Assembly (NCBI GenBank): GCA_017991315.1
Contig: JAGOQS010000001.1
Location: 310,001 to 374,000, forward strand
Direction of reading: 5' to 3'
Origin: Ferrovibrio sp.
GTDB taxonomy: Bacteria; Pseudomonadota; Alphaproteobacteria; Ferrovibrionales; Ferrovibrionaceae
Length of the DNA: 64,000 nt
Position 1 is the first letter of the stretch. Every line of letters begins with the position of its first letter. Made by a program: the position numbers and the translations under genes. Positions 10,599 through 22,788 of the stretch are shown here, piece by piece. The notes beneath the pieces were generated by a model that saw only the letters and a program-made list of their open reading frames with translations, had not been told where the DNA came from and did not search any database.

Positions 10599-10637
10599 TA
10601 TCCCCCAAGCACCGTCAACGGGTTAGCGCAAATTAAC

Positions 10638-10663
10638 AGCGGCAATGGTGCGACTTTGCCGCT
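10638..10663. promoter_or_regulatory. Inverted repeat in the yaiI-nasT divergent gap
   Basis: AGCGGCAA (10638-10645) and TTGCCGCT (10656-10663) are perfect 8-base arms around a 10-base spacer. The right arm overlaps TTGCCG, a possible -35 for nasT. It could be an operator for one or both divergent genes; there is no T-run, so a terminator is unlikely. Confidence 0.4.
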
Positions 10664-10718
10664 TTGGTATGCGAATTGCTAGTCTGTAAGGCATAAAGCC
10701 TGACTTGGGTGAAGCATT

Positions 10719-11306
10719 GTGAGTGGTTTGCGTATTCTTCTGATCGACGAGAACCCGGAACGGGCCGCGGTATTGAACGAGGCGTTGCGGGCTCAGGGCT
10801 ATGAACTGGTGGCGCGCATGGCGCCACGCGAACTAAGTGCGCGCCGCGTCGCCGAGATTGCTCCCGATGTGGTGATCGTCGACATGGATTCGCCCAGCCG
10901 CGACACCATCGACAGCATGCGGCAGATCAACGACGACCAGCCGCGTCCAATCGTCATGTTCGTCGATCAGTCCGATGTCGGCATGATCGAACAGGCCATG
11001 CAGGCCGGCGTTTCGGCCTATATCATCGACGGTCTGAACGTGAAGCGGGTGAAGCCGATCCTCGATGTTGCCATCGCGCGCTTCCGGGAATTCCAGGCGC
11101 TGCGCGATGAACTGAAGAAGACCAAGGCGACGCTGCATGAGCGCAAGCTGATCGAGCGCGCCAAGGGCATGCTGATGCGCGAGAAGAAGCTCAGCGAGGA
11201 GGAGGCCTATGCCGCGCTCCGCAAGCTCGCCATGGACCGCCAGCAGCGCCTTGTCGATGTGGCCGAAACGCTGCTCGCTTTCGCCGATCTGCTGAAGAAG
11301 GATTGA
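10719..11306 (+). CDS. nasT: ANTAR-domain response regulator NasT (nitrate antiterminator)
   Basis: A 195-residue protein with a pseudo-receiver domain (LRILLIDENPERAAVL, DVVIVDMDSPSRDTIDSM) and a C-terminal ANTAR RNA-binding domain from about residue 135: LIERAKGMLMREKKLSEEEA ending in VDVAETLL. NasT binds paired hexaloop hairpins in nascent leaders and prevents termination. It is normally held by the nitrate sensor NasS until nitrate is present. It starts with GTG at 10719. The gene is followed directly by a leader with matching hairpins, and the presumed NasS lies further on at 13,824. Confident. Confidence 0.93.
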   Translation: MSGLRILLIDENPERAAVLNEALRAQGYELVARMAPRELSARRVAEIAPDVVIVDMDSPSRDTIDSMRQINDDQPRPIVMFVDQSDVGMIEQAMQAGVSAYIIDGLNVKRVKPILDVAIARFREFQALRDELKKTKATLHERKLIERAKGMLMREKKLSEEEAYAALRKLAMDRQQRLVDVAETLLAFADLLKKD

Positions 11307-11313
11307 GACCGTC

Positions 11314-11330
11314 TGCATAGTGCGCGTGCA
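11314..11330. promoter_or_regulatory. Candidate NtrC enhancer site
   Basis: TGCA-N9-TGCA with the nine-base spacing of the NtrC consensus, flanked by C and G to give CTGCA...TGCAG. The inner bases match the consensus poorly. It lies about 100 bases upstream of the -24/-12 promoter, a normal enhancer distance. Confidence 0.45.
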
Positions 11331-11427
11331 GGCTTCGCCTGTTTTGTGTGCAGTGCAGCAGAGTCACACCCCCTTCGACTTTCGTCGTGGTGTAGCGGAA
11401 AACCGCCAATTTAGCTAATTCTGCGAC

Positions 11428-11444
11428 TTGGCACGCTTCATGCT
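11428..11444 (+). promoter_or_regulatory. Sigma-54 (-24/-12) promoter of the nitrate operon
   Basis: TTGGCACG followed by CTTC and ATGCT. The invariant GG (11430-11431) and GC (11442-11443) are separated by exactly ten bases, and the TTGGCACG half matches the consensus fully; the -12 half has A in place of the first T. Predicted transcription start is near 11455, six bases before the first leader hairpin. Confidence 0.72.
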
Positions 11445-11460
11445 TTGTTAAACCCGACCA

Positions 11461-11513
11461 CCTGCTGCAACGGCGCAGCAGGTTCATATGATCGGACAAT
11501 GGCGTCCTGCGAT
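11461..11513 (+). ncRNA. ANTAR (NasT) target: two hexaloop hairpins in the nrtA leader
   Basis: Hairpin 1 is an 8-bp stem (11461-11468 with 11475-11482) closing the loop AACGGC. Hairpin 2 is a 4-bp stem (11494-11497 with 11504-11507), extended by ATC/GAT past a bulge, closing the loop AATGGC. Both loops have six bases with A first and G fourth, the known ANTAR recognition rule. The spacing between them is short, as in other ANTAR leaders. Confidence 0.82.
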
Positions 11514-11567
11514 GCGGCTCCGGGCCTTTTTGGCTTCGGATCACCTGCATCGGAGGGCGCCTTTTTT
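11501..11567 (+). terminator. Conditional terminator of the nitrate operon leader
   Basis: Arms 11501-11515 and 11547-11561 pair at 14 of 15 positions, counting one G-T wobble, and are followed by six T residues (11562-11567). The 5' arm begins inside the loop of ANTAR hairpin 2 and uses all of its 3' arm, so terminator and hairpin 2 cannot form together. A further 7-bp hairpin (11568-11591) lies between the terminator and the nrtA RBS. Confidence 0.82.
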
Positions 11568-11620
11568 GTTGCCGTGAGCACAAGCGGCAACGCAACGGAC
11601 AACCAGCAGGAGGCTTCGAC

Positions 11621-12931
11621 ATGCGTGGCACGATTGGCAAGAAGGGTGTGAACCGGCGTCAGGTGTTCAAGGGGGCGGCGGGCGCGGCGGCTTTGTTCGC
11701 GTCGGCGAAGCTGGCTTTGCCGGCGGGTGCTTTCGCACAGGCAGCGGGCCCGGAAGTGAAGGGCACCAAGCTCGGCTATATCGCGCTCACCGATGCCTCG
11801 CCGCTGATCATCGCCAAGGAAAAGGGCTTTTTCGCCAAGTATGGCGTGCCCGACATGGTGATCGACAAGCAGGCTTCCTGGGGCGCCACGCGTGACAATA
11901 TCGAACTCGGCGAAGCCGGCGGCGGCATCACCGGCGCGCATATCCTGACGCCGATGCCCTACCTGATCACGGTCGGCAAGATCACCAAGACCAAGATTCC
12001 GATGGCGATGCTGGCGCGGCTCAACACCAACGGTCAGTCGATCTCGGTGTCGAACACCTACGCCAATATGGGCGTCACCACCGATGCCAAGGCACTCGGC
12101 GCTGCCTTCAAGAAGGCCAAGGCGGAAGGCAAGGATATCAAGTGCGCCATGACCTTCCCCGGCGGCACCCATGACATGTGGATCCGCTATTGGCTGGCCG
12201 CCAACGGTATCGATCCGGAGAAGGATGTTTCCACCATCGTGGTGCCGCCGCCGCAGATGGTGGCGAACATGAAGGTGAACACCATGGAAGCCTTCTGTGT
12301 CGGCGAGCCGTGGAATTCGCAGCTTGTGCACCAGAAGATCGGCTTCACCGCGCTCACCACCGGCGAGTTGTGGAAGGATCACCCCGAAAAGTCGCTCAGC
12401 CTGCGCGCCGATTGGGTGGAGAAGAACCCGAAGGCCGCCAAGGCGATTTTGATGGCGGTGATGGAAGCCCAGATGTGGTCCGACAAGATGGAGAACAAGG
12501 CCGAGCTGTGCAAGATCGTCGGCGGTCGCGACTGGTTCAAGGTGCCGGTGGAAGACATCCTCAACCGTCAGACCGGTGATATCGATTACGGCGATGGCGG
12601 CCGCAAGGTAAAGGTTGGCCTGGATAGCCCGCTGGTGATGAAATTCTGGCGCGACTACGCTTCCTATCCGTTCCAGAGCCATGAACTCTGGTTCCTCACC
12701 GAGAATATGCGCTGGGGCTACTTGCCCGCCGATACCGACACCAAGGCGCTGATCGGCCAGGTGAACCGCGAGGATCTGTGGCGCGATGCGGCCAAGACGC
12801 TGGGCGTGGCGGCGGCTGATATTCCGGCCTCCACCTCGCGCGGCAAGGAAACCTTCTTTGATGGCAAGGTGTTCGATCCGGCCGATCCGGCTGCGTATCT
12901 CAAGAGCCTCGCCATTTCCCGCGTCGCCTGA
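11621..12931 (+). CDS. nrtA: Nitrate ABC transporter substrate-binding protein
   Basis: 436 residues. The N-terminus carries a twin-arginine signal (NRRQVFKG, then a hydrophobic stretch ending AGAFAQA), so it is exported folded. The core has KLGYIALTDASPLIIAKEKGFF, ILTPMPYL, FPGGTHDMWIRYWLAANGIDP and AFCVGEPWNSQ, the NrtA/CmpA family pattern of nitrate or bicarbonate binders. It is the first gene after the ANTAR leader, with AGGAGG seven bases before the ATG. The operon context (nitrate and nitrite reductases) fixes the ligand as nitrate/nitrite. Confidence 0.93.
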   Translation: MRGTIGKKGVNRRQVFKGAAGAAALFASAKLALPAGAFAQAAGPEVKGTKLGYIALTDASPLIIAKEKGFFAKYGVPDMVIDKQASWGATRDNIELGEAGGGITGAHILTPMPYLITVGKITKTKIPMAMLARLNTNGQSISVSNTYANMGVTTDAKALGAAFKKAKAEGKDIKCAMTFPGGTHDMWIRYWLAANGIDPEKDVSTIVVPPPQMVANMKVNTMEAFCVGEPWNSQLVHQKIGFTALTTGELWKDHPEKSLSLRADWVEKNPKAAKAILMAVMEAQMWSDKMENKAELCKIVGGRDWFKVPVEDILNRQTGDIDYGDGGRKVKVGLDSPLVMKFWRDYASYPFQSHELWFLTENMRWGYLPADTDTKALIGQVNREDLWRDAAKTLGVAAADIPASTSRGKETFFDGKVFDPADPAAYLKSLAISRVA

Positions 12932-12941
12932 TCAGGAAAGC

Positions 12942-13811
12942 ATGGCCATGAAAATGGAAAGCATCGACAAAGCGGCCCTCACGTATGAGGGCCGCGACTG
13001 GCGCGTCACCCTGCTGCCGAAACTGACGGCAGGCGCCAAGCATATCGCCGCACGCGTGTTGCCGCCGGTGCTGTTCCTCGCGCTGCTGCTCGGCATCTGG
13101 CAGATCGCCTGCTCCTCACCCGGCGCCACCTTGCCGCCGCCGACCAAGGTGCTGGACGAAACCTGGATGCTGATCGTCGATCCGTTCTTCGACAAGGGCA
13201 ACCTGGACAAGGGCCTGTTCTGGCATATTGCCTCCAGCCTCAAGCGCGTCGCCATCGGTTTCTCGCTGGCCGCCGTGATTGGCATCGCGCTTGGTGTGCT
13301 GATCGGCCAGTCGACCCTGGCTTTCCGCGGCCTCGATCCGATCTTCCAGGTGCTGCGCACGGTGCCGCCGCTGGCCTGGCTGCCGCTGTCGCTGGCGGCT
13401 TTCCGCCATGCCGATCCGTCGGCAATCTTCGTTATCGCCATCACCGCGATCTGGCCGATCATCCTCAACACCGCCGTCGGTATCCGCAATATTCCGCAGG
13501 ATTACCGCAATGTCGCCAAGGTGCTGCAACTCAATGGCTTCGAGTTCTTCTTCAAGGTGATGCTGCCGGCGACCGTGCCGTTCATGTTCACCGGCCTCAA
13601 GATCGGCATCGGCCTGTCCTGGCTCGCCATCGTTGCCGCTGAAATGCTCATTGGCGGCGTCGGTATCGGCTTCTTCATCTGGGATGCCTGGAACTCCTCG
13701 CTGATCAGCGAGATCATCCTGGCGCTCATCTATGTCGGTCTGGTCGGCTTCATGCTCGACCGCCTGATCGGCTTCATCGGCAGCCGCGTCGGCGGCTACT
13801 CCCAGCAGTAA
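12942..13811 (+). CDS. nrtB: Nitrate ABC transporter permease
   Basis: 289 residues with about six membrane helices and the EAA-type cytoplasmic loop around IPQDYRNVAKVLQLNGFEFFFKVMLPA. Features such as VLRTVPPLAWLPLSLAAF match NrtB and the taurine/sulfonate-type permeases. The start is ATG 12942 (MAMKMES), ten bases after nrtA; a second ATG at 12948 is possible. The frame stays open upstream to 12786, inside nrtA, which is rejected. It forms the inner-membrane channel with the ATPase at 15158. Confidence 0.93.
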   Translation: MAMKMESIDKAALTYEGRDWRVTLLPKLTAGAKHIAARVLPPVLFLALLLGIWQIACSSPGATLPPPTKVLDETWMLIVDPFFDKGNLDKGLFWHIASSLKRVAIGFSLAAVIGIALGVLIGQSTLAFRGLDPIFQVLRTVPPLAWLPLSLAAFRHADPSAIFVIAITAIWPIILNTAVGIRNIPQDYRNVAKVLQLNGFEFFFKVMLPATVPFMFTGLKIGIGLSWLAIVAAEMLIGGVGIGFFIWDAWNSSLISEIILALIYVGLVGFMLDRLIGFIGSRVGGYSQQ

Positions 13812-13823
13812 CGGGGAACACGT

Positions 13824-15143
13824 ATGGCGCCGCGTCCGAAGAAGAGCAAGCGTGCGGCAGTCGCCAATGCGGCGGCTCCCCTCACGATGCGTATCGGCTT
13901 CATTGCTCTTTCCGACAGCGCGGCGCTATTCGTTGCCCAGGAAAAAGGCTTCTTCGCCCAGCACGGCCTGAAAGTCGAACTGGTGCGGGAGCCCTCCTGG
14001 GCCAATATCCGCGACAAGGTGGCGCTCGGTGCGCTGGATGCGGCGCATATGCTGGCGCCGATGCCGCTGGCTGCCACGCTGGGTGCCGGCGGCTGGAAGA
14101 AGCCGCAGATCACCTCGTTCGTGCTGGCGCTGAACGGCAACGCCGTCACCATTTCCGCCAAGCTGTGGGATCGCCTCGTTGCCATCGAGCCGAGCCTGCA
14201 GCATAGCCGGGCCGAAAGTGCCAATGCGTTGCGCCGCCTGATCAACCAGGACCGCAAGGCCGGCAAGCCGCCGCTCACCTTCGCCACCGTGTGGCCGTAT
14301 TCTTCGCACCAGATCCAATTGCGCTACTGGCTCGCTGCCGCCGGTATCGATCCGGACCGCGATGTCAACTTGGTGGTGGTGCCGCCGCCGCAGATGACCG
14401 ACCGCCTCGGTGCCGGCGAGATCGATGGCTTCTGCGTCGGCGATCCCTGGAACACCCTGGCCGTGCTGCGTGGCGTCGGCCGCATCCTGATTTCCGGCTA
14501 CGAGATCTGGAACAACCGCATGGAAAAGGTGGTTGGCGCCAACCGCGATTGGGTTGAGCGCAATCCCAATGCGCATAAGGCCATGCTGATGGCGCTGATC
14601 GAGGCCGGCGAATGGCTGGATAAGCCGGAGAACCGGCTTGAGGGCGTCGATATCATGGCGCGCGATGCCTATGTCGGCAGCCATGCGGCGGAAGCTATCC
14701 GGCTCGGCATGCTCGGCATCGTGCGCTATGGCCTCGATACCAATCCGGAGCATATGCCGGATTTCCATGTCTTCAGCCGCTACACGGCGAATTTCCCCTG
14801 GCGCAGCCAGGCGGAATGGTATTTGAGCGAAATGCGACGCTGGAATCTGATCGATCCGGCCACCGATATCGCGGCGCTGGCCGATCAGGTCTACCGCACC
14901 GATCTCTACCGCGAAGCCGCCGCCGCGCTGGACAAACCTTTCCCGCTGATCGACCGCAAGCCGGAAGGCCTGCATGCCGGCCCCTGGCAGCTCGCTCAGG
15001 CCAGTGCCCCGATCCCGATGGGGCCGGATCTCTTCTTCGATGGCAGCTATGTCTCCTCGGCGCGTTCCCAGGCCATCGGCCTGCGCCGTGAGGCCGATGC
15101 TGCCGCCAATGCCTCTCCCCGCCGTTTGCCGGCCAACCGCTGA
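13824..15143 (+). CDS. nasS: NrtA-like cytoplasmic nitrate sensor, probably NasS
   Basis: 439 residues homologous to NrtA: MRIGFIALSDSAALFVAQEKGFF, MLAPMPLAATLG, FATVWPYSSHQIQLRYWLAAAGIDP and GFCVGDPWNTL. Unlike NrtA it has no signal peptide; the N-terminus (MAPRPKKSKRAAVANAAAP) is basic without a hydrophobic core, so the protein should stay in the cytoplasm. That is the hallmark of NasS, which holds NasT inactive until nitrate binds. Here it lies between nrtB and the ATPase gene, downstream of the leader its partner controls, rather than beside nasT. The alternative, a second transport component, is less likely given the missing signal. Confidence 0.8.
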   Translation: MAPRPKKSKRAAVANAAAPLTMRIGFIALSDSAALFVAQEKGFFAQHGLKVELVREPSWANIRDKVALGALDAAHMLAPMPLAATLGAGGWKKPQITSFVLALNGNAVTISAKLWDRLVAIEPSLQHSRAESANALRRLINQDRKAGKPPLTFATVWPYSSHQIQLRYWLAAAGIDPDRDVNLVVVPPPQMTDRLGAGEIDGFCVGDPWNTLAVLRGVGRILISGYEIWNNRMEKVVGANRDWVERNPNAHKAMLMALIEAGEWLDKPENRLEGVDIMARDAYVGSHAAEAIRLGMLGIVRYGLDTNPEHMPDFHVFSRYTANFPWRSQAEWYLSEMRRWNLIDPATDIAALADQVYRTDLYREAAAALDKPFPLIDRKPEGLHAGPWQLAQASAPIPMGPDLFFDGSYVSSARSQAIGLRREADAAANASPRRLPANR

Positions 15144-15157
15144 CAGGAGTTGCCCCC

Positions 15158-15958
15158 ATGTCCACGTATCTTGCCTTCGACGATGTCGGCATGAGCTTCA
15201 AGGGTGCCAACGGAACCTTCGTGGCATTGCGCGAGATCAACCTGCAGATCAAGCAGGGTGAATTCGTTGCGCTGATCGGCCATTCGGGCTGCGGCAAGTC
15301 GACCCTGCTCAATATCGTTGCCGGCCTGTTGCGCGCCACCACGGGCGGCGTGCTGCTGCAGGGCAAGGAAGTGAACGATCCCGGTCCGGATCGCGCCGTG
15401 GTGTTTCAGAACCATTCGCTGCTGCCCTGGCTGACGGTCTACGACAATGTCCGCCTGGCAGTGGACAAGGTGCACCGCAAGGCCAAGTCGGCGGCGGAGC
15501 GCGATGAATGGACCAAGCATAATCTCGCCCTGGTCGGCATGGATCATGCGCTGGAGAAGCGGCCGCATGAAATCTCCGGCGGCATGAAGCAGCGCGTCGG
15601 CATCGCCCGCGCGCTGGCCATGGAGCCGAAGGTGCTGCTGCTGGACGAACCCTTTGGCGCGCTTGATGCGCTCACCCGCGCGACGTTGCAAGATACGGTC
15701 ATGGAGTTGCAGGCAAAGCTGCAGAACACCGTGATCATGATCACCCATGATGTGGATGAAGCTGTGCTGCTGTCTGACCGCGTGGTGATGATGACCAACG
15801 GCCCGGCGGCAACCATCGGCGAGGTGCTGAATGTCAACCTGCCGCGCCCGCGCAATCGCCTCGCCATGGTCAGCGACCCGGAATATAACCGTTGCCGCAA
15901 GGAGATCATGAACTTCCTCTATGCCCGGCACCGTGCGCCGGCCACGCATGCGGCCTGA
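15158..15958 (+). CDS. nrtC: Nitrate ABC transporter ATPase
   Basis: 266 residues. Walker A GHSGCGKST, Q-loop VFQNHSLLPWLTV, ABC signature ISGGMKQR, Walker B VLLLDEPFGALD and switch ITHDVDEA are all present. It lacks the extra C-terminal NrtA-like domain of cyanobacterial NrtC, so it resembles NrtD/NasD-type ATPases; naming varies. It powers nitrate uptake with the permease at 12942. It is 14 bases after nasS with a CAGGAG site, and ten bases before nirB. Confidence 0.93.
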   Translation: MSTYLAFDDVGMSFKGANGTFVALREINLQIKQGEFVALIGHSGCGKSTLLNIVAGLLRATTGGVLLQGKEVNDPGPDRAVVFQNHSLLPWLTVYDNVRLAVDKVHRKAKSAAERDEWTKHNLALVGMDHALEKRPHEISGGMKQRVGIARALAMEPKVLLLDEPFGALDALTRATLQDTVMELQAKLQNTVIMITHDVDEAVLLSDRVVMMTNGPAATIGEVLNVNLPRPRNRLAMVSDPEYNRCRKEIMNFLYARHRAPATHAA

Positions 15959-15968
15959 GGCCAGGGCG

Positions 15969-18428
15969 ATGACGGGGAATTCAAAACCGGAGCGGCTGGT
16001 CATCATCGGCAACGGCATGGCGCCGGGCCGCATGCTGGAGAATCTGTTCGAGAAGGCGCCGGGCCGCTACGCGGTCACCATTTTCAACGCCGAACCGCGC
16101 GTGAATTACGACCGCATCATGCTGTCGCCGGTGCTCTCGGGCGAGAAGACCTACGAGCAGATCGTGATTCATGGCGATGGCTGGTATATCCAGAACGGCG
16201 TCACCCTGCACAAGGGCACGCGCGTTACCAGTATTGATCCGGTGGCCAAGACGATCACCACCGATAACGGCCTGGTCGAATCCTATGACAAGCTGGTGAT
16301 CGCCACCGGTTCGGTGCCGTTCATCATTCCGGTGCCGGGCCACAAGCTGCCCGGCGTGCTGAGCTACCGCGATCTCGACGATGTCGATGCCATGATCCTG
16401 GCTGCCAAGGCGCGCGGCAAGGCCGTGGTGATCGGCGGCGGCCTGCTGGGCCTGGAAGCTGCGGCGGGTCTCGCCGAGCAGGGCATGCAGGTCAGCGTGG
16501 TGCATCTGATGCCGACGCTGATGGAGCGGCAACTCGATCAATCCGCCGGCTACCTGCTGAAGAAAGCCATCGAGGCGCGCGGCATCACCGTGCATACCGG
16601 CGCCAATACCAAGGCCATTCTCGGCGAAAAGAAGGTCGAGGGCGTGGAACTGGAAGACGGCACGGTGTTGCCGGCCGATCTGGTGGTGATGGCGGTGGGC
16701 ATCCGACCGAATGGCACCCTGGCCAAGGAAGCCGGGCTGACGGTCAATCGCGGCATCGTGGTGGACGACCAGATGCGCACGTCGGATCCGCATATCTTTG
16801 CGCTTGGCGAATGCGTCGAGCATCGCGGCGCCACCTATGGCCTGGTCGCGCCGCTCTATGAGATGGCCGGCGTGCTGGCCCGCACGCTGATCGGCGAGGA
16901 AGCCGCCTATACCGGCTCGGTCACCGCCACCAAGCTGAAAGTCACCGGCATCAGCCTCTATTCCGCCGGCGATTTCGCCGAGGCCAAGGACCGCGAGGAA
17001 ATCGTGCTGCGCGATGCCAGCCGTGGCGTCTACAAGCGGCTGGTGCTGAAGGACAGCCGCATCATCGGCGCCGTGCTCTACGGCGATACCGAGGATGGCG
17101 CCTGGTTCTTCCAGTTGCTGCGCGAGGGCAAGGATATTGCCGATCTGCGCGAGACGTTGATCTTCGGCCAGGGCTATGCGGGAGGCAGCCCGCTGGACCC
17201 TATGGCGGCCGTTGCAGTCTTGCCGGATGAGGCAGAGATCTGCGGCTGTAACGGCGTATGCAAGGGCAAGATCGTCGCAGCGATCACGGAAAAGAACCTG
17301 ACCAGCCTGGATCAGGTGCGGGCCCATACCAAGGCATCGGCCTCCTGCGGCTCCTGCACCGGTCTGGTGGAAAAGCTGATCGGCTTCACGCTCGGCGATG
17401 GCTACCAGCCCGCCACCGTGAAGGCGATGTGCGGCTGCACCGATCTGGGCCATGACGATGTGCGCCGCCTGATCGTCGCCAAGGGCCTCAAGTCGATGCC
17501 GGCGGTGATGCAGGAACTGGAATGGAAAACCTCCTGCGGCTGCTCGAAATGCCGTCCTGCGCTGAATTTCTACCTGCTCGCCACCTGGCCCGGCGAATAT
17601 GCCGATGACAGCCAGTCGCGTTTCATCAACGAACGCGCCCATGCCAATATCCAGAAGGATGGCACCTATTCGGTGGTGCCGCGCATGTGGGGCGGCGTCA
17701 CCTCGGCCAAGGAACTCCGCGCCATTGCCGATGTCGCCGAGAAGTACAATATCCCGACGGTGAAGGTGACGGGCGGCCAGCGTATCGACCTGCTCGGCGT
17801 GAAGAAGCAGGACCTGCCTGGTGTGTGGGCCGATCTCAATGCCGCCGGCATGGTTTCCGGCCATGCCTATGCCAAGGGCCTGCGCACGGTGAAAACCTGC
17901 GTCGGCACCGAGTGGTGCCGCTTCGGCACCCAGGATTCCACCGGCCTTGGCATCAAGCTGGAGAAATACACCTGGGGCTCCTGGACCCCGCATAAGGTGA
18001 AGATGGGTGTCTCCGGCTGCCCGCGCAATTGCTCGGAAGCGACGGTTAAGGATATCGGCATCATCTGCGTCGATTCCGGCTACGAGCTGCACATTGCCGG
18101 TGCCGCCGGCCTGGAAGTGAAGCAGACCATCCTGTTCTGCAAGCTGGAGAGCGAGGCGGAGGTGCTGGAATATACCGGCGCCCTGATGCAGCTCTATCGC
18201 GAGCAGGCGCATTATCTCGACCGTATCCATAAATGGGTGCATCGCGTCGGGCTGGAGAGCATCAAGCAGCAGATCATCGAGGATGCGGCGCGGCGGCGCG
18301 AACTGAATGCCCGTTTTGTGTACTCCCAGACCTTCGCGCAGATCGATCCCTGGGCCGAGCGCGTTGCCGGCGCCCAGGCCCATGAATTCAAGCCGATGGC
18401 CGATCTCACCGTGCGCGAGGTGGCGTGA
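15969..18428 (+). CDS. nirB: Assimilatory nitrite reductase [NAD(P)H], large subunit
   Basis: An 819-residue flavo-sirohaem enzyme reducing nitrite to ammonium. The N-terminal FAD/NAD(P)H oxidoreductase (LVIIGNGMAPGRML; VVIGGGLLGLEAA) is followed by two BFD-like Cys clusters (CGCNGVCKGK...CGSCTG near residues 420-465; CGCTD...CGCSKC near 490-535), then the ferredoxin-like and sirohaem domains with TCVGTEWCRFG and SGCPRNCSEA, the [4Fe-4S]-sirohaem cysteines. The start MTGNSKPERL at 15969 is preferred to the in-frame upstream frame that overlaps nrtC. Length is normal. It works with nirD and needs the product of cysG. Confidence 0.95.
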   Translation: MTGNSKPERLVIIGNGMAPGRMLENLFEKAPGRYAVTIFNAEPRVNYDRIMLSPVLSGEKTYEQIVIHGDGWYIQNGVTLHKGTRVTSIDPVAKTITTDNGLVESYDKLVIATGSVPFIIPVPGHKLPGVLSYRDLDDVDAMILAAKARGKAVVIGGGLLGLEAAAGLAEQGMQVSVVHLMPTLMERQLDQSAGYLLKKAIEARGITVHTGANTKAILGEKKVEGVELEDGTVLPADLVVMAVGIRPNGTLAKEAGLTVNRGIVVDDQMRTSDPHIFALGECVEHRGATYGLVAPLYEMAGVLARTLIGEEAAYTGSVTATKLKVTGISLYSAGDFAEAKDREEIVLRDASRGVYKRLVLKDSRIIGAVLYGDTEDGAWFFQLLREGKDIADLRETLIFGQGYAGGSPLDPMAAVAVLPDEAEICGCNGVCKGKIVAAITEKNLTSLDQVRAHTKASASCGSCTGLVEKLIGFTLGDGYQPATVKAMCGCTDLGHDDVRRLIVAKGLKSMPAVMQELEWKTSCGCSKCRPALNFYLLATWPGEYADDSQSRFINERAHANIQKDGTYSVVPRMWGGVTSAKELRAIADVAEKYNIPTVKVTGGQRIDLLGVKKQDLPGVWADLNAAGMVSGHAYAKGLRTVKTCVGTEWCRFGTQDSTGLGIKLEKYTWGSWTPHKVKMGVSGCPRNCSEATVKDIGIICVDSGYELHIAGAAGLEVKQTILFCKLESEAEVLEYTGALMQLYREQAHYLDRIHKWVHRVGLESIKQQIIEDAARRRELNARFVYSQTFAQIDPWAERVAGAQAHEFKPMADLTVREVA

Positions 18429-18772
18429 TGACGATGATGCAGGATGAATGGGTTGAAATCGGCGGCATCGAGGAAATTCCGCGCCGCGGCGCTCGCGTGG
18501 TCAAATCGCCGGTGGGCGATATCGCGGTGTTCCGCGCCATGGATGACAGCATCTTCGCGCTGGAGGACCGCTGCCCGCATAAGGGCGGCCCGCTGAGCCA
18601 GGGCATTGTGCAGGGCCATGCGGTTAACTGCCCGCTGCACAATTGGCTGATCAGCCTGGAAACCGGCAAGGCCCAGGGTGCCGATGAGGGCTGTGCCCGC
18701 ACCGTGCCGGTGAAGCTGCAGGGTGGCCGTATCCTGCTTGGCCTTTCCGCGCTTATCTCCCGCGCCGCCTGA
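18428..18772 (+). CDS. nirD: Nitrite reductase small subunit, Rieske-type
   Basis: 114 residues with a Rieske [2Fe-2S] fold. Cys49 and His51 (CPHKGGPLSQG) and Cys68 and His71 (CPLHNW) are all present. Many small NirD proteins, such as that of E. coli, have lost these ligands, so here the subunit probably carries a real cluster. The start is the ATG at 18428 overlapping the nirB stop by one base (TGATG), indicating coupled translation; a GTG three bases earlier is also possible. Confidence 0.92.
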   Translation: MTMMQDEWVEIGGIEEIPRRGARVVKSPVGDIAVFRAMDDSIFALEDRCPHKGGPLSQGIVQGHAVNCPLHNWLISLETGKAQGADEGCARTVPVKLQGGRILLGLSALISRAA

Positions 18773-18773
18773 G

Positions 18774-21410
18774 ATGACGGAAACCCGCACCACCTGCCCC
18801 TATTGCGGCGTCGGGTGCGGCGTCATCGCCACGCGGGACGACACAAACGGCGCGGTGTCGCTGCGTGGCGACCTGCAGCATCCGGCCAATTTCGGTCGCC
18901 TCTGCTCCAAAGGCTCGGCGCTGGCCGAAACGCTCAGCCTGGATGACCGGCTACTGTATCCGGAACTGCATGGCGAACGCATCGGCTGGGATGCGGCCCT
19001 GGATCATGCTGCCGCGCGCTTCACCCAGGTGATCGATGAACATGGCCCGGAGGCGGTGGCCTTCTATGTTTCGGGCCAGTTGCTCACCGAAGACTATTAC
19101 GTCGCCAACAAGCTGATGAAGGGCTATATCGGCTCAGCCAACATCGACACCAATTCGCGGCTCTGCATGGCGTCCGCCGTGGTTGGCCACAAGCGCGCCT
19201 TTGGCAGCGACACCGTGCCGGTGAATTACGAGGATCTCGAGCTTGCCGATCTGGTGGTGCTGGTCGGCTCCAATCTCGCCTGGTGCCATCCGGTGCTGTT
19301 CCAGCGCCTGGCGGCGGCCAAGGCGGAACGGCCGCAGTTGCGCGTGGTGGTGATCGACCCGCGCCGCACCATGACGGCGCAATTCGCCGACCTGCATTTG
19401 CCGCTGGCGCCGGGTTCGGATGTCGCGCTGTTCAATGGCCTGCTGGCCTATCTGGAAGCCGATAGCCGGGCCGATGCCGGCTTTCTTGGCGATCATACCA
19501 GCGGCGCCGAGGCGGCCCTGAAAGTCGCGCGCGAGGCCGGCATTGATGCGGCGGTCAGCGCCACGGGCTTGAGCCGCGCCACGTTGCTGGATTTCTATGC
19601 GCTGTTCGCGCGCACCGAAAAGGTGGTCACTGGCTTCAGCCAGGGCGTCAACCAGTCCAGCCATGGCGTCGACAAGGTCAATGCGATCCTGAATTGCCAT
19701 CTCTATACCGGCCGCATCGGCAAGCCGGGGCAGGGGCCATTCTCGATCACCGGCCAGCCCAATGCCATGGGCGGGCGCGAGGTCGGCGGTCTCGCCAACC
19801 AGCTTGCCGCGCATATGGATATAGACAACCCGGCGCATCGCGCGCTGGTGCAGGGTTTCTGGCAGTCGCCGGCGATTGCCGCGAAACAGGGCTTGAAGGC
19901 AGTCGATCTGTTCCAGGCGGTGCGCGAGGGCAAGGTGCGGGCGGTATGGATCGCCGGCACCAATCCGGTCGATTCCATGCCGGATGCCGATGCGGTGCGC
20001 GATGCCCTTAAAGCTTGCGATTTCGTCGTGGTCTCCGATGTCACGCGGCACACCGACACGGCGGCGCTGGCGCATCTGCTGCTGCCGGCCGCCGCCTGGG
20101 GCGAAAAGGACGGCACTGTCACCAATTCCGAACGCCGGGTTTCGCGCCAGCGCGGCTTCCTGCCGCTGCCGGGAGAGGCGAAGCCGGACTGGTGGATCTT
20201 CGCCGAGGTGGCACGCCGCATGGGCTGGGGCGCGGCTTTCGCCTATGAGAATACCGCCAGCATCTTCGCCGAACATGCCGCGCTCTCTGGCCATAATAAT
20301 GCCGGCAGCCGCGATTTCGACCTGTCGCATTTAAGCGGCATCACGCCGGAAGCCTATGACGCCCTGGCGCCGCTGCAATGGGGGCCGGCGCGGTTTTTCG
20401 GCGATGGCCGCTTCTACACGCCGGATGGCCGCGCGCGGCTGCTGCCCACGGTCTATGTGCCGCCGGCCAGCCAGCCGGACGACCGCTATCCGCTGATCCT
20501 CAATACTGGCCGGGTGCGCGACCAGTGGCATACCATGACCCGCACCGCCAAGACGGCGCGGCTGATGAGCCACATCGCCGAGCCATTTGTCGAGCTGCAT
20601 CCTGACGACGCGGCGGCGCGCGGCATCGCCCCGGCTTCGCTGGTGCGGCTGGAAAGCGAACGCGGCCATGTCATCGCCCGTGCCCTGGTGACGCCGGAGC
20701 AGCAGCGCGGCTCGGTCTTCGTGCCGCTGCACTGGACCGATCAGTTGGCGTCGCGCGGCCGCGTCGATGCCCTGATCGCGCCGCATCGCGATGCGCTGTC
20801 CGGCCAGCCGGAACTGAAATACACCATCGCCGAAGCCAAGCCTTATGGCGCCGCCTGGTATGGCTTCGCCGTGCTGGCCGAACGGCCTGCGGTGCTGGAG
20901 GCAGAATACTGGGCGCTGGCGCCGGCCAAGGCCGGCTGGCGCGTCGAACTCGCCGATGCCGCCCTGCCGGATGATTGGGATGCCTATGTGCGTCGCCTGT
21001 TTGGTGCCGGCGATGATGTTGAAATGCTGGCCTATCGCGATGTTGCCGGTGGCCGGCATCGTTTCGCGGCCTTCCAGGCTGGAAAGTTGCTTGGTGCGCT
21101 GTTCGTGGCGCCGGAACCGGTGGCGGTATCGCGCGCCTGGGCCGCTGAAAGGCTGGAAGAGGAAGCGCAGGACGCCGCCGCGCGGCTGCGCCTGCTGGCT
21201 GGCCGCGCCGGTGTCGACCGGCCAGAGCGTGGCGCCATCGTCTGCGCCTGTTTTGAAATCGGCGTCAACCAGATCGTCGCGGCTATCGGGCAAGGCTGTG
21301 CCGATGTCGAGGCGGTCGGCGCCGCGCTCAAGGCCGGCACCAATTGCGGTTCCTGCCGCAGCGAAATCCGGAGGCTGATCGATGGCACCCGTATCCAGAA
21401 AGCCGGCTGA
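18774..21410 (+). CDS. nasA: Assimilatory nitrate reductase, molybdopterin catalytic subunit
   Basis: 878 residues. The N-terminal [4Fe-4S] site is Cys8-x2-Cys11-x3-Cys15 and Cys44. The bis-MGD core includes NSRLCMASA, with Cys131 as likely Mo ligand, TGQPNAMGGREVGGLANQ, and a C-terminal dinucleotide-binding domain (LNTGRVRDQWHTMTRT). It ends in a BFD-like [2Fe-2S] domain (VCACFEIG...NCGSCRSEI, last ~55 residues) that receives electrons. No separate NAD(P)H subunit (nasB/nasC type) is in the operon, so the donor must come from elsewhere. It is cytoplasmic. The start at 18774 is immediately before the first cluster motif. Confidence 0.95.
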   Translation: MTETRTTCPYCGVGCGVIATRDDTNGAVSLRGDLQHPANFGRLCSKGSALAETLSLDDRLLYPELHGERIGWDAALDHAAARFTQVIDEHGPEAVAFYVSGQLLTEDYYVANKLMKGYIGSANIDTNSRLCMASAVVGHKRAFGSDTVPVNYEDLELADLVVLVGSNLAWCHPVLFQRLAAAKAERPQLRVVVIDPRRTMTAQFADLHLPLAPGSDVALFNGLLAYLEADSRADAGFLGDHTSGAEAALKVAREAGIDAAVSATGLSRATLLDFYALFARTEKVVTGFSQGVNQSSHGVDKVNAILNCHLYTGRIGKPGQGPFSITGQPNAMGGREVGGLANQLAAHMDIDNPAHRALVQGFWQSPAIAAKQGLKAVDLFQAVREGKVRAVWIAGTNPVDSMPDADAVRDALKACDFVVVSDVTRHTDTAALAHLLLPAAAWGEKDGTVTNSERRVSRQRGFLPLPGEAKPDWWIFAEVARRMGWGAAFAYENTASIFAEHAALSGHNNAGSRDFDLSHLSGITPEAYDALAPLQWGPARFFGDGRFYTPDGRARLLPTVYVPPASQPDDRYPLILNTGRVRDQWHTMTRTAKTARLMSHIAEPFVELHPDDAAARGIAPASLVRLESERGHVIARALVTPEQQRGSVFVPLHWTDQLASRGRVDALIAPHRDALSGQPELKYTIAEAKPYGAAWYGFAVLAERPAVLEAEYWALAPAKAGWRVELADAALPDDWDAYVRRLFGAGDDVEMLAYRDVAGGRHRFAAFQAGKLLGALFVAPEPVAVSRAWAAERLEEEAQDAAARLRLLAGRAGVDRPERGAIVCACFEIGVNQIVAAIGQGCADVEAVGAALKAGTNCGSCRSEIRRLIDGTRIQKAG

Positions 21411-22788
21411 GGCCGAACCGGCGCGTATCGCGCCGCTGGCCCGCCTGCCGCTGTTCTTCGACCTGCGAGACCGCCGTGCCGTGGTGGTGGGGATGAGCGA
21501 GGCGGCGGACTGGAAAGCGGAATTGCTGCAGGCCGCCGGTGCCGACCTGCTGCGACTGGAGAGCTGGCACGCAGCGGATTTCGCCAATGCCGTTCTCGTG
21601 GTCGCGGATATCGATGATCTCGACGAAGCCGCCGCCCTGCAAGCTGCCTGCCGCGCGGCTGGCGCGCTTTGCTGCATCATCGACAAGCCAGCTTTCTGCG
21701 ATGTGCAGTTCGGCGCCATCGTCAACCGTTCGCCGGTGGTGATCGGCATTTCCACCGATGGCGCCGCGCCGGTGCTGGCGCAGGCGATCCGCCGCCGTAT
21801 CGAAACCGCCTTGCCGCTGGCGCTCGGCGCTTGGGCAGCGGCGGCCAAGGCGATCCGAGGCCGGCTGGCGGCGCTGCTGCCCGACAAGGCGGCGCGGCGC
21901 GGCTTCTGGGAACGCTTCGCCGATCACGCCTTCACGCGCCCCGCCGAGGAAGCGCGGGCGGAAAGCCTGCTGGCCTTGGCCGATCCGGCTGGCGGCGTCA
22001 TGGGCGAGGTCGCCCTGGTTGGTGCCGGGCCGGGCGATGCCGAATTGCTCACGCTCAAGGCAATGCGCGCGCTGCAATCCGCCGATGTGATCCTGTTCGA
22101 CGATCTGGTTTCCGACGATGTGCTGGAGCTGGCGCGGCGCGAAGCGAAGCGGATGATGGTGGGAAAGCGCGGCAAGCGGGCCTCCTGCAAGCAGGACGAT
22201 ATCAACGCGCTGATGATCAAGCTGGCCCGCCAGGGCAAACGCGTGGTGCGGCTGAAATCCGGCGACCCGATGATTTTCGGCCGCGCCGGCGAGGAGATCG
22301 AGGCATTGCAGGCTGCCGGCATCAGCGTGCGCGTGGTGCCGGGCATCACCACGGCACTGGCGGCGGCGTCCGAGCTTGGCGTGTCGCTGACCCATCGGCA
22401 GGCGGCGCATTCGGTGCGTTTCGTCACCGGCCATTCGCGCCAGGGCAGCCTGCCTGAAGGCCTCGACTGGCGCGGCCTCGCCGACCCGGAAACCACGCTG
22501 ATCTTCTACATGGGCGGTCGCACCGCACCGGAGATCGCGGCAAAGCTGATCGCCGAAGGTATGCCGACGGACCTGCCGGTGGTGGCGCTCAGCAATGTGT
22601 CGCGCCCCAATGCGCGCCGCTGGTGCGGCCGCCTGGACGATCTGCATCAGGGCTTGGACATGAACGATGGCGCGCCGCTGCTGCTCGGCATTGGCGCGGT
22701 ATTCAAGAGGGCGCGAACCAGCGCGTTACCTGCCGATCCGGCAGCACAGCCAGCAGCTTCGCCAGCGCAGCCACGATCAGCAGCGTAA
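21382..22788 (+). CDS. cysG: Sirohaem synthase CysG-type fusion
   Basis: 468 residues. The N-terminal part (about 20-165) resembles the precorrin-2 dehydrogenase/ferrochelatase (CysG-B) with FCDVQFGAIVNRSPVVIGISTDG. The C-terminal part (about 208-455) is uroporphyrinogen-III methyltransferase: VALVGAGPGDAELLTLKA, LKSGDPMIFGRAGEE, VVPGITTALAAAS. It makes the sirohaem needed by NirB. The NAD loop expected as GGGxVAxRK reads GMSEAADWK (37-45), so the dehydrogenase step may be weakened. It begins 29 bases inside nasA and its last 86 bases overlap the convergent Gate-domain gene. Confidence 0.9.
   Translation: MAPVSRKPAEAEPARIAPLARLPLFFDLRDRRAVVVGMSEAADWKAELLQAAGADLLRLESWHAADFANAVLVVADIDDLDEAAALQAACRAAGALCCIIDKPAFCDVQFGAIVNRSPVVIGISTDGAAPVLAQAIRRRIETALPLALGAWAAAAKAIRGRLAALLPDKAARRGFWERFADHAFTRPAEEARAESLLALADPAGGVMGEVALVGAGPGDAELLTLKAMRALQSADVILFDDLVSDDVLELARREAKRMMVGKRGKRASCKQDDINALMIKLARQGKRVVRLKSGDPMIFGRAGEEIEALQAAGISVRVVPGITTALAAASELGVSLTHRQAAHSVRFVTGHSRQGSLPEGLDWRGLADPETTLIFYMGGRTAPEIAAKLIAEGMPTDLPVVALSNVSRPNARRWCGRLDDLHQGLDMNDGAPLLLGIGAVFKRARTSALPADPAAQPAASPAQPRSAA

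Follow-up and report, generated by a model that had tools for sequence, protein, structure and literature searches.

Dual control of nitrate-assimilation genes, by Ntr and by an ANTAR leader, is already known from Klebsiella nasF (with NasR), Pseudomonas NalA (P11 in Rfam) and Paracoccus nasA. The nasAB genes of Azotobacter follow the same dual-control design. As the combination is a textbook arrangement, exemplified by Klebsiella nasF and Pseudomonas NalA, the leader from Ferrovibrio described here is not a new design.

In Pseudomonas NalA a sigma-54/NtrC promoter feeds a leader with hexaloop hairpins, and the terminator of this leader is relieved by NasT (PMC12830290, PMC3973561). In Paracoccus denitrificans nitrate dissociates NasS from NasT (PMC3795266); NasT binds the nasA leader, and a mutation in hairpin I abolishes expression (PMC3795266, PMC5424462). 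For NasR and EutV, SELEX and binding experiments established that the loops require A at the first and G at the fourth position and that the stems must end in C:G (PMC7496416, PMC3369931), the C:G pair closing the loop being a requirement seen in the NasR SELEX (PMC7496416). In the Enterococcus faecalis eut system the linker between the two hairpins is 5-12 nt long (PMC3369931).

We analysed a window of Ferrovibrio DNA, i.e. the whole stretch of 64 kb whose positions are used below. We read the nitrate-assimilation operon in this window as being transcribed from a sigma-54 promoter through a NasT/ANTAR antitermination leader, with feedback through nasS; the probability that we assign to this reading as a whole is roughly 0.87.

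Gene content of the locus

All genes of the locus are on the + strand, in the order nasT, a gap of 314 nt carrying the leader, and then nrtA-nrtB-nasS-nrtD-nirB-nirD-nasA-cysG-like. The nasT gene (10719..11306, GTG start) codes for a protein of 195 aa with a receiver domain (PF00072, E=2.9e-11) and an ANTAR RNA-binding domain (PF03861, E=4.7e-19); a NasT with both domains thus adjoins its target, as is characteristic of NasT-NasS systems. Proteins close to this NasT are found in Ferrovibrio species (96-80% identity), which places the window in that genus. This NasT is the sole ANTAR protein that we found in the genome bin, which is 72.6% complete.

The first gene after the leader, nrtA (11621..12931, ATG at 11621), encodes the binding protein of a nitrate ABC transporter (PF13379, E=1.1e-102) with a twin-arginine-like signal (NRRQVFKG...), and is preceded by the ribosome-binding site AGGAGG (11608..11613). 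It is followed by nrtB for the permease (12942..13811; PF00528, E=1.6e-27; start codon picked by eye), nasS (13824..15143; PF13379, E=4.3e-85), nrtD for the ATP-binding subunit (15158..15958; TIGR01184, 357 bits at a cut-off of 291.8) and nirB for the large subunit of assimilatory nitrite reductase (15963..18428; TIGR02374, 931.9 bits). The genes nirD (18425-18772), nasA (about 18771-21410) and the cysG-like gene (21382-22788) were recognized by Pfam matches to Rieske, Molybdopterin and TP_methylase, respectively. For NasT, NrtA and NasS no NCBIfam family scored above its cut-off.

The product of nasS, a cytoplasmic nitrate sensor, shares the NMT1_2 fold with NrtA, and no signal peptide was seen at its N-terminus. 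In a tree of 126 proteins of the NrtA/NasS type the protein starting at 11621 falls into one NrtA clade (29 rows, support 100), while the protein starting at 13824 is placed outside both NrtA clades, among proteins that neighbour nasT elsewhere. The deep branches of this tree are weakly supported, and NasS is therefore to be seen as a grade rather than a proven clade.

Predicted promoters of the leader and of nasT

The sigma-54 promoter predicted for the leader, TTGGCACGCTTCATGCT (11428..11444, + strand), has the form TTGGCACG-N5-TGCT, with the -24 GG at 11430-31, the -12 GC at 11442-43 and ten bases between them. It has the context TGGCAC-N5-TTGC expected of such sites and is conserved in relatives; transcription is predicted to start at ~11455. 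With up to one mismatch allowed, the 64 kb contain no other match; as ~0.5 matches are expected by chance in a window, however, the site taken alone is weak evidence. The distance from the promoter GG to the loop of the first leader hairpin (P1) is 36-40 nt in every relative with both elements called. Thus, the GG-N10-GC promoter put forward in the original prediction was found, at a spacing from the hairpin that is fixed among relatives. RpoN is encoded in the same genome bin. So is an NtrC that scores above its family cut-off and keeps the GAFTGA loop, a feature that matters because the loop is needed for action on sigma-54 and is absent from NtrC of Caulobacter and Rhodobacterales (PMC10274813). 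A PII-type gene of the same genome is preceded by a similar sigma-54 site.

The activator-binding site is less certain. A TGCA-N9-TGCA sequence, taken in the original prediction for an upstream site, is indeed present at 11314-11330; as evidence of an NtrC site it had to be given up, as 2.1 copies are expected by chance in the 64-kb window and the sequence is kept only within the same species. A better conserved element, TTTTGTGTGCAGTGCAGCA (11342..11360, + strand; TTTTGTGCA-N-TGCA in relatives), recurs after nasT in most relatives and is a candidate activator site. It is near-palindromic in Inquilinus and Desertibaculum (TTGTGCANTGCACAA) and becomes a perfect palindrome, TTGTGCACTGCACAA, in some lineages. 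In the genome it is rare, with four matches at up to one mismatch (none for the reversed control); the other copies precede unrelated genes that lack a sigma-54 site (L147, L151, L153), and the element was absent from the promoters of PII-type genes where we searched for it in these genomes. Its identification as an NtrC box thus found no support, and it may have no part in nitrogen control. Between this element and the promoter the window also has a hairpin, ACACCCCCTTCGACTTTCGTCGTGGTGT (11366-11393; -8.4 kcal/mol, z = -2.2), which is not kept in other species.

The alternative that survives best concerns this activator: the leader would work through NasT as proposed, while the promoter would respond to a protein other than NtrC, or to NtrC placed elsewhere, acting through TTTTGTGCA-N-TGCA. 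The recurrence of a near-palindrome in relatives, where TGCA-N9-TGCA with its chance copies fails to recur, speaks for this possibility; the distribution of the element in the genome, away from PII-type genes and sigma-54 sites, speaks against it. We consider the alternative a serious one, falling a little short of an even chance.

The nasT gene appears to have a sigma-54 promoter of its own, TTGGTATGCGAATTGCT (10664..10680, + strand; predicted start ~10691), and in most of the Ferrovibrionales loci compared a similar site is located 51-75 nt before the start of nasT. In Paracoccus nasT is under NtrC control (PMC5424462), and sigma-54 promoters have been predicted widely for genes of the NasT type (PMC12316311). 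Given this predicted promoter, nitrogen limitation would raise the antiterminator and its target alike. Transcripts from the nasT promoter could likewise enter the nrtA leader. A possible weak terminator of nasT, GCAGGC-TTC-GCCTGT followed by a T-rich stretch (11328..11345, + strand), came from a pattern scan in which such sites were no commoner than in shuffles.

One could argue that the GG-N10-GC site arose by chance, that the nasT transcript extends into the operon through a weak or absent nasT terminator and that the ANTAR switch alone regulates it. The weak terminator candidate of nasT would allow this, and about half of the shuffled windows contain an equally good promoter match. Nevertheless, the spacing of the site from P1 is constant even as the intergenic DNA around it diverges, and RpoN and an NtrC with GAFTGA are both present; we regard transcription independent of sigma-54 as improbable and retain the sigma-54 promoter in our reading.

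Leader hairpins and the terminator

Downstream of the predicted start the leader forms a hairpin P1 of 9 bp (11460..11483; arms 11460-11468 and 11475-11483) with the hexaloop AACGGC (11469-11474) closed by C11468-G11475. After a linker of 10 nt (11484-11493) there is a hairpin P2 of 4 bp, GGAC-AATGGC-GTCC (11494..11507; arms 11494-11497 and 11504-11507, loop 11498-11503, closing pair C11497-G11504), which would be half of the antiterminator. Both loops carry A1 and G4, kept in relatives, and both are closed by a C:G pair; the linker in the window is short, as in the eut system of E. faecalis. The intrinsic terminator (11501..11567) has arms at 11501-11515 and 11547-11561, with 14 of 15 positions paired (one G.U; the remaining position is a G.G mismatch), and T6 at 11562-11567. 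The 5′ arm of the terminator includes the final three bases of the P2 loop and the entire P2 3′ arm, so P2 and the terminator are mutually exclusive, the second hairpin overlapping the terminator as is expected of an ANTAR target. An extra hairpin of 7 bp, GTTGCCG/CGGCAAC (11568..11591), stands ahead of the ribosome-binding site of nrtA. In these respects (two hexaloop hairpins, a 15-bp terminator with six T whose 5′ arm consumes the loop and 3′ arm of the second hairpin, and an extra hairpin and ribosome-binding site after it) the leader is as originally predicted. Its description as complete had overlooked the sigma-54 promoter of nasT and the position of nasS downstream of the terminator.

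The leader of 121 nt folds at -63.7 kcal/mol versus -42.4 for shuffles (z = -5.9, 0/200), and the terminator alone is also more stable than shuffles (z = -5.85). P2 folded alone is thermodynamically weak, no better than shuffles, which fits expectation, because a hairpin of this kind needs a protein to hold it.

Comparison with relatives was based on NasT loci from 12 other genomes of the order and on a scan of species genomes that gave 80 loci. While the intergenic DNA diverges fast, the promoter, both loops, the P2 stem and the T-tract are retained. Covariation was counted on 14 distinct leaders. In P1 changes on both sides are seen in 8 of the 9 pairs, and 92.9% of cells are paired, against 32-53% after sliding; the closing pair is C-G in 12 of 14 leaders and U-G in two. 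In P2 all four pairs are kept in 14/14 leaders (with one G.U; closing C-G in 14/14), and this retention supports P2 despite its weak folding. In the terminator, compensation is seen at 7 of 14 pairs. Shuffle counts cannot be taken as probabilities here, given that the leaders are relatives of one another and that one of them supplied the structure; how many pairs are compensated carries more weight. The anatomy of the leader, its mutually exclusive folds, covariation and conservation can be read directly from the sequence, as can the gene content.

The set of leaders is a clean one, with fixed spacing from promoter to P1 and a variable linker from P1 to P2: the distance from loop to loop ranges from 24 to 81 nt across relatives. 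Long linkers fold into a hairpin of their own; in the leaders of Ferrovibrio species with a long linker (L006-L011) the inner part of this hairpin, GCCTCCCCAGG, is conserved in most. Such a hairpin would hold P1 and P2 close together, matching the need of EutV for a short linker (PMC3369931).

Some relatives have variant leaders. In eight loci from Acetobacteraceae and some Rhodospirillales (L047, L052, L053, L054, L080, L087, L095, L096) the leader is situated in the nasT-nasS gap; the sigma-54-type site (unclear in L054) and two hexaloops are retained, P2 has a T.T or T.C mismatch and the T-tract is absent. A translational leader in Acetobacteraceae, in which P2 would pair with the ribosome-binding site, was considered and dropped: such pairing is no better than in shuffles (combined p = 0.43). 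In the leaders of L013/L040 and L014/L050 an additional loop of six bases, the third, stands between P1 and P2; the final loop of L013/L040 has G rather than A as its first base (GATGGC). A record titled Mycobacterium sp. KBS0706 (L036, NZ_VCCH02000064.1) has a NasT locus whose layout and leader are nearly identical with those of Inquilinus limosus, and is probably misnamed.

A covariance model, R1, was built from the 14 leaders and so contains the window by design; its score there is 79 bits. It finds one leader in the genome of the window and one in the sister genome, each at the place of the nrtA leader; among the 150 first-look candidates scored per genome no further NasT target rose above noise. 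The search against Rfam, proposed as a check of the original prediction, gave no match in the window at the gathering threshold, and the 12 related loci gave only a tRNA. Below threshold, two models aligned on exactly this stretch: RF03032 narK RNA (11430-11508; 36.6 bits, gathering cut-off 43.2), which spans GGCAC...TGC, a hairpin with the hexaloop AACGGC and GACAAAG-CGUC, and RF00625 P11 (25.2 bits, cut-off 70). Both families appear to be ANTAR/NasT leaders. Since both models begin with sigma-54 promoter DNA (GGCAC...TGC), they include bases that are probably not transcribed.

It might still be said that these hairpins are a mere terminator of nasT with no part in antitermination, as an intrinsic terminator does follow nasT, yet two conserved A1/G4 hexaloops, covariation in P1, invariance of P2, its overlap with the terminator and the adjoining ANTAR gene make this very improbable.

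The sigma-54 and NasT/ANTAR core of the original prediction is well supported by its conservation and covariation, by the nasT and nasS genes alongside and by RpoN and an NtrC with GAFTGA in the same genome; an NtrC site at TGCA-N9-TGCA is not. On our reading, nitrogen limitation would activate sigma-54 polymerase, with NtrC as the most likely activator, and transcription would start at ~11455; nasT would likewise be transcribed from its sigma-54 promoter. The nascent RNA would form P1. With no free NasT the 3′ half of P2 would be drawn into the terminator and transcription would stop at 11562-11567. By analogy with homologues, nitrate or nitrite would free NasT from NasS, and free NasT would bind the hexaloops of P1 and P2 and keep P2 closed, so that polymerase could read into nrtA-nrtB-nasS-nrtD-nirBD-nasA-cysG. 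NasS made by read-through would then restrain NasT, a negative feedback suggested by the layout. The predicted AND of nitrogen starvation and nitrate at the nrtA operon is well supported at the level of sequence.

Position of nasS and comparison with described systems

The less usual feature of the locus is that the gene of the nitrate sensor is inside the operon controlled by the switch. With leaders placed by the covariance model, the order nasT - leader - ... - nasS was observed in 27 of 81 loci including the window (26 of the 80 others), and the order nasT - nasS - leader - nrtA in 13 of 81; the true shares are uncertain, since in the remaining loci the leader was undetected within the stretch or nasS was not found. 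Loci with nasS downstream of the leader include L029, L031, L033, L036, L037, L038, L040 and L050, and nasS is sometimes the first gene. In two gammaproteobacterial loci nasS and nrtA are each preceded by a leader (L032:5891-5970/7636-7714 and L035:6605-6690/8423-8518).

The gap before nasS is twelve bases long and leaves no room for an intergenic promoter. A nasS promoter inside nrtB is conceivable; a search for sigma-70-like sites in 10600-15200 found none. With NasR, read-through in vitro rose from 5% to 52% in the presence of nitrate (PMC7496416), and a leak as large as this 5% would supply NasS. If NasS, the inhibitor of NasT, is made solely by read-through, as the gene order suggests for many lineages, the switch is expected to restrain itself; the gene order thus implies a feedback expected to match NasS to NasT. 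More tentatively, the switch may be autogenous and self-balancing, with leaky read-through setting NasS equal to NasT in the absence of nitrate, and nasT - leader - downstream nasS may be an evolutionarily stable alternative to the textbook order nasTS - leader across Ferrovibrionales, Rhodospirillales and their relatives; this broader proposal is one that we hold as possible and somewhat less than probable. Our literature search, which covered subscription literature poorly, found no paper describing nasS downstream of its own leader.

Compared with Klebsiella oxytoca nasF, the Ferrovibrio locus has the same combination of Ntr control and a nitrate-responsive ANTAR leader with two hairpins (PMC7496416, PMC5424462); NasR senses nitrate through its NIT domain, whereas in Ferrovibrio sensing should be by a separate NasS. 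In Pseudomonas the P11 model of NalA aligns to the Ferrovibrio promoter and hairpins, below its cut-off, but NalA controls nirBD, while the Ferrovibrio leader precedes genes for an ABC transporter, nasS and the reductases. RF03032 narK RNA, as seen above, is similar in its elements and differs by a score under the gathering threshold. The nasTS-nasABGHC locus of Paracoccus denitrificans shares the NasT-NasS pair and a leader with hairpin I; in that species both nasT and nasS precede the leader and share a transcript, while in Ferrovibrio nasT alone is upstream and nasS is in the operon. The amidase operon of Pseudomonas aeruginosa, with AmiC-AmiR, also has an antiterminator of the ANTAR type released by ligand. 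The sensor gene of AmiC-AmiR too lies downstream of the controlled terminator. That system differs in sensing amide and in having amiR within the operon as well. The Ferrovibrio locus extends a known two-input nitrate switch, with strong comparative support, to a lineage of iron oxidisers, and the presence of nasS inside the switched operon leads to a testable prediction of feedback that is absent from the models studied so far, in which nasTS or nasST lies upstream of the leader.
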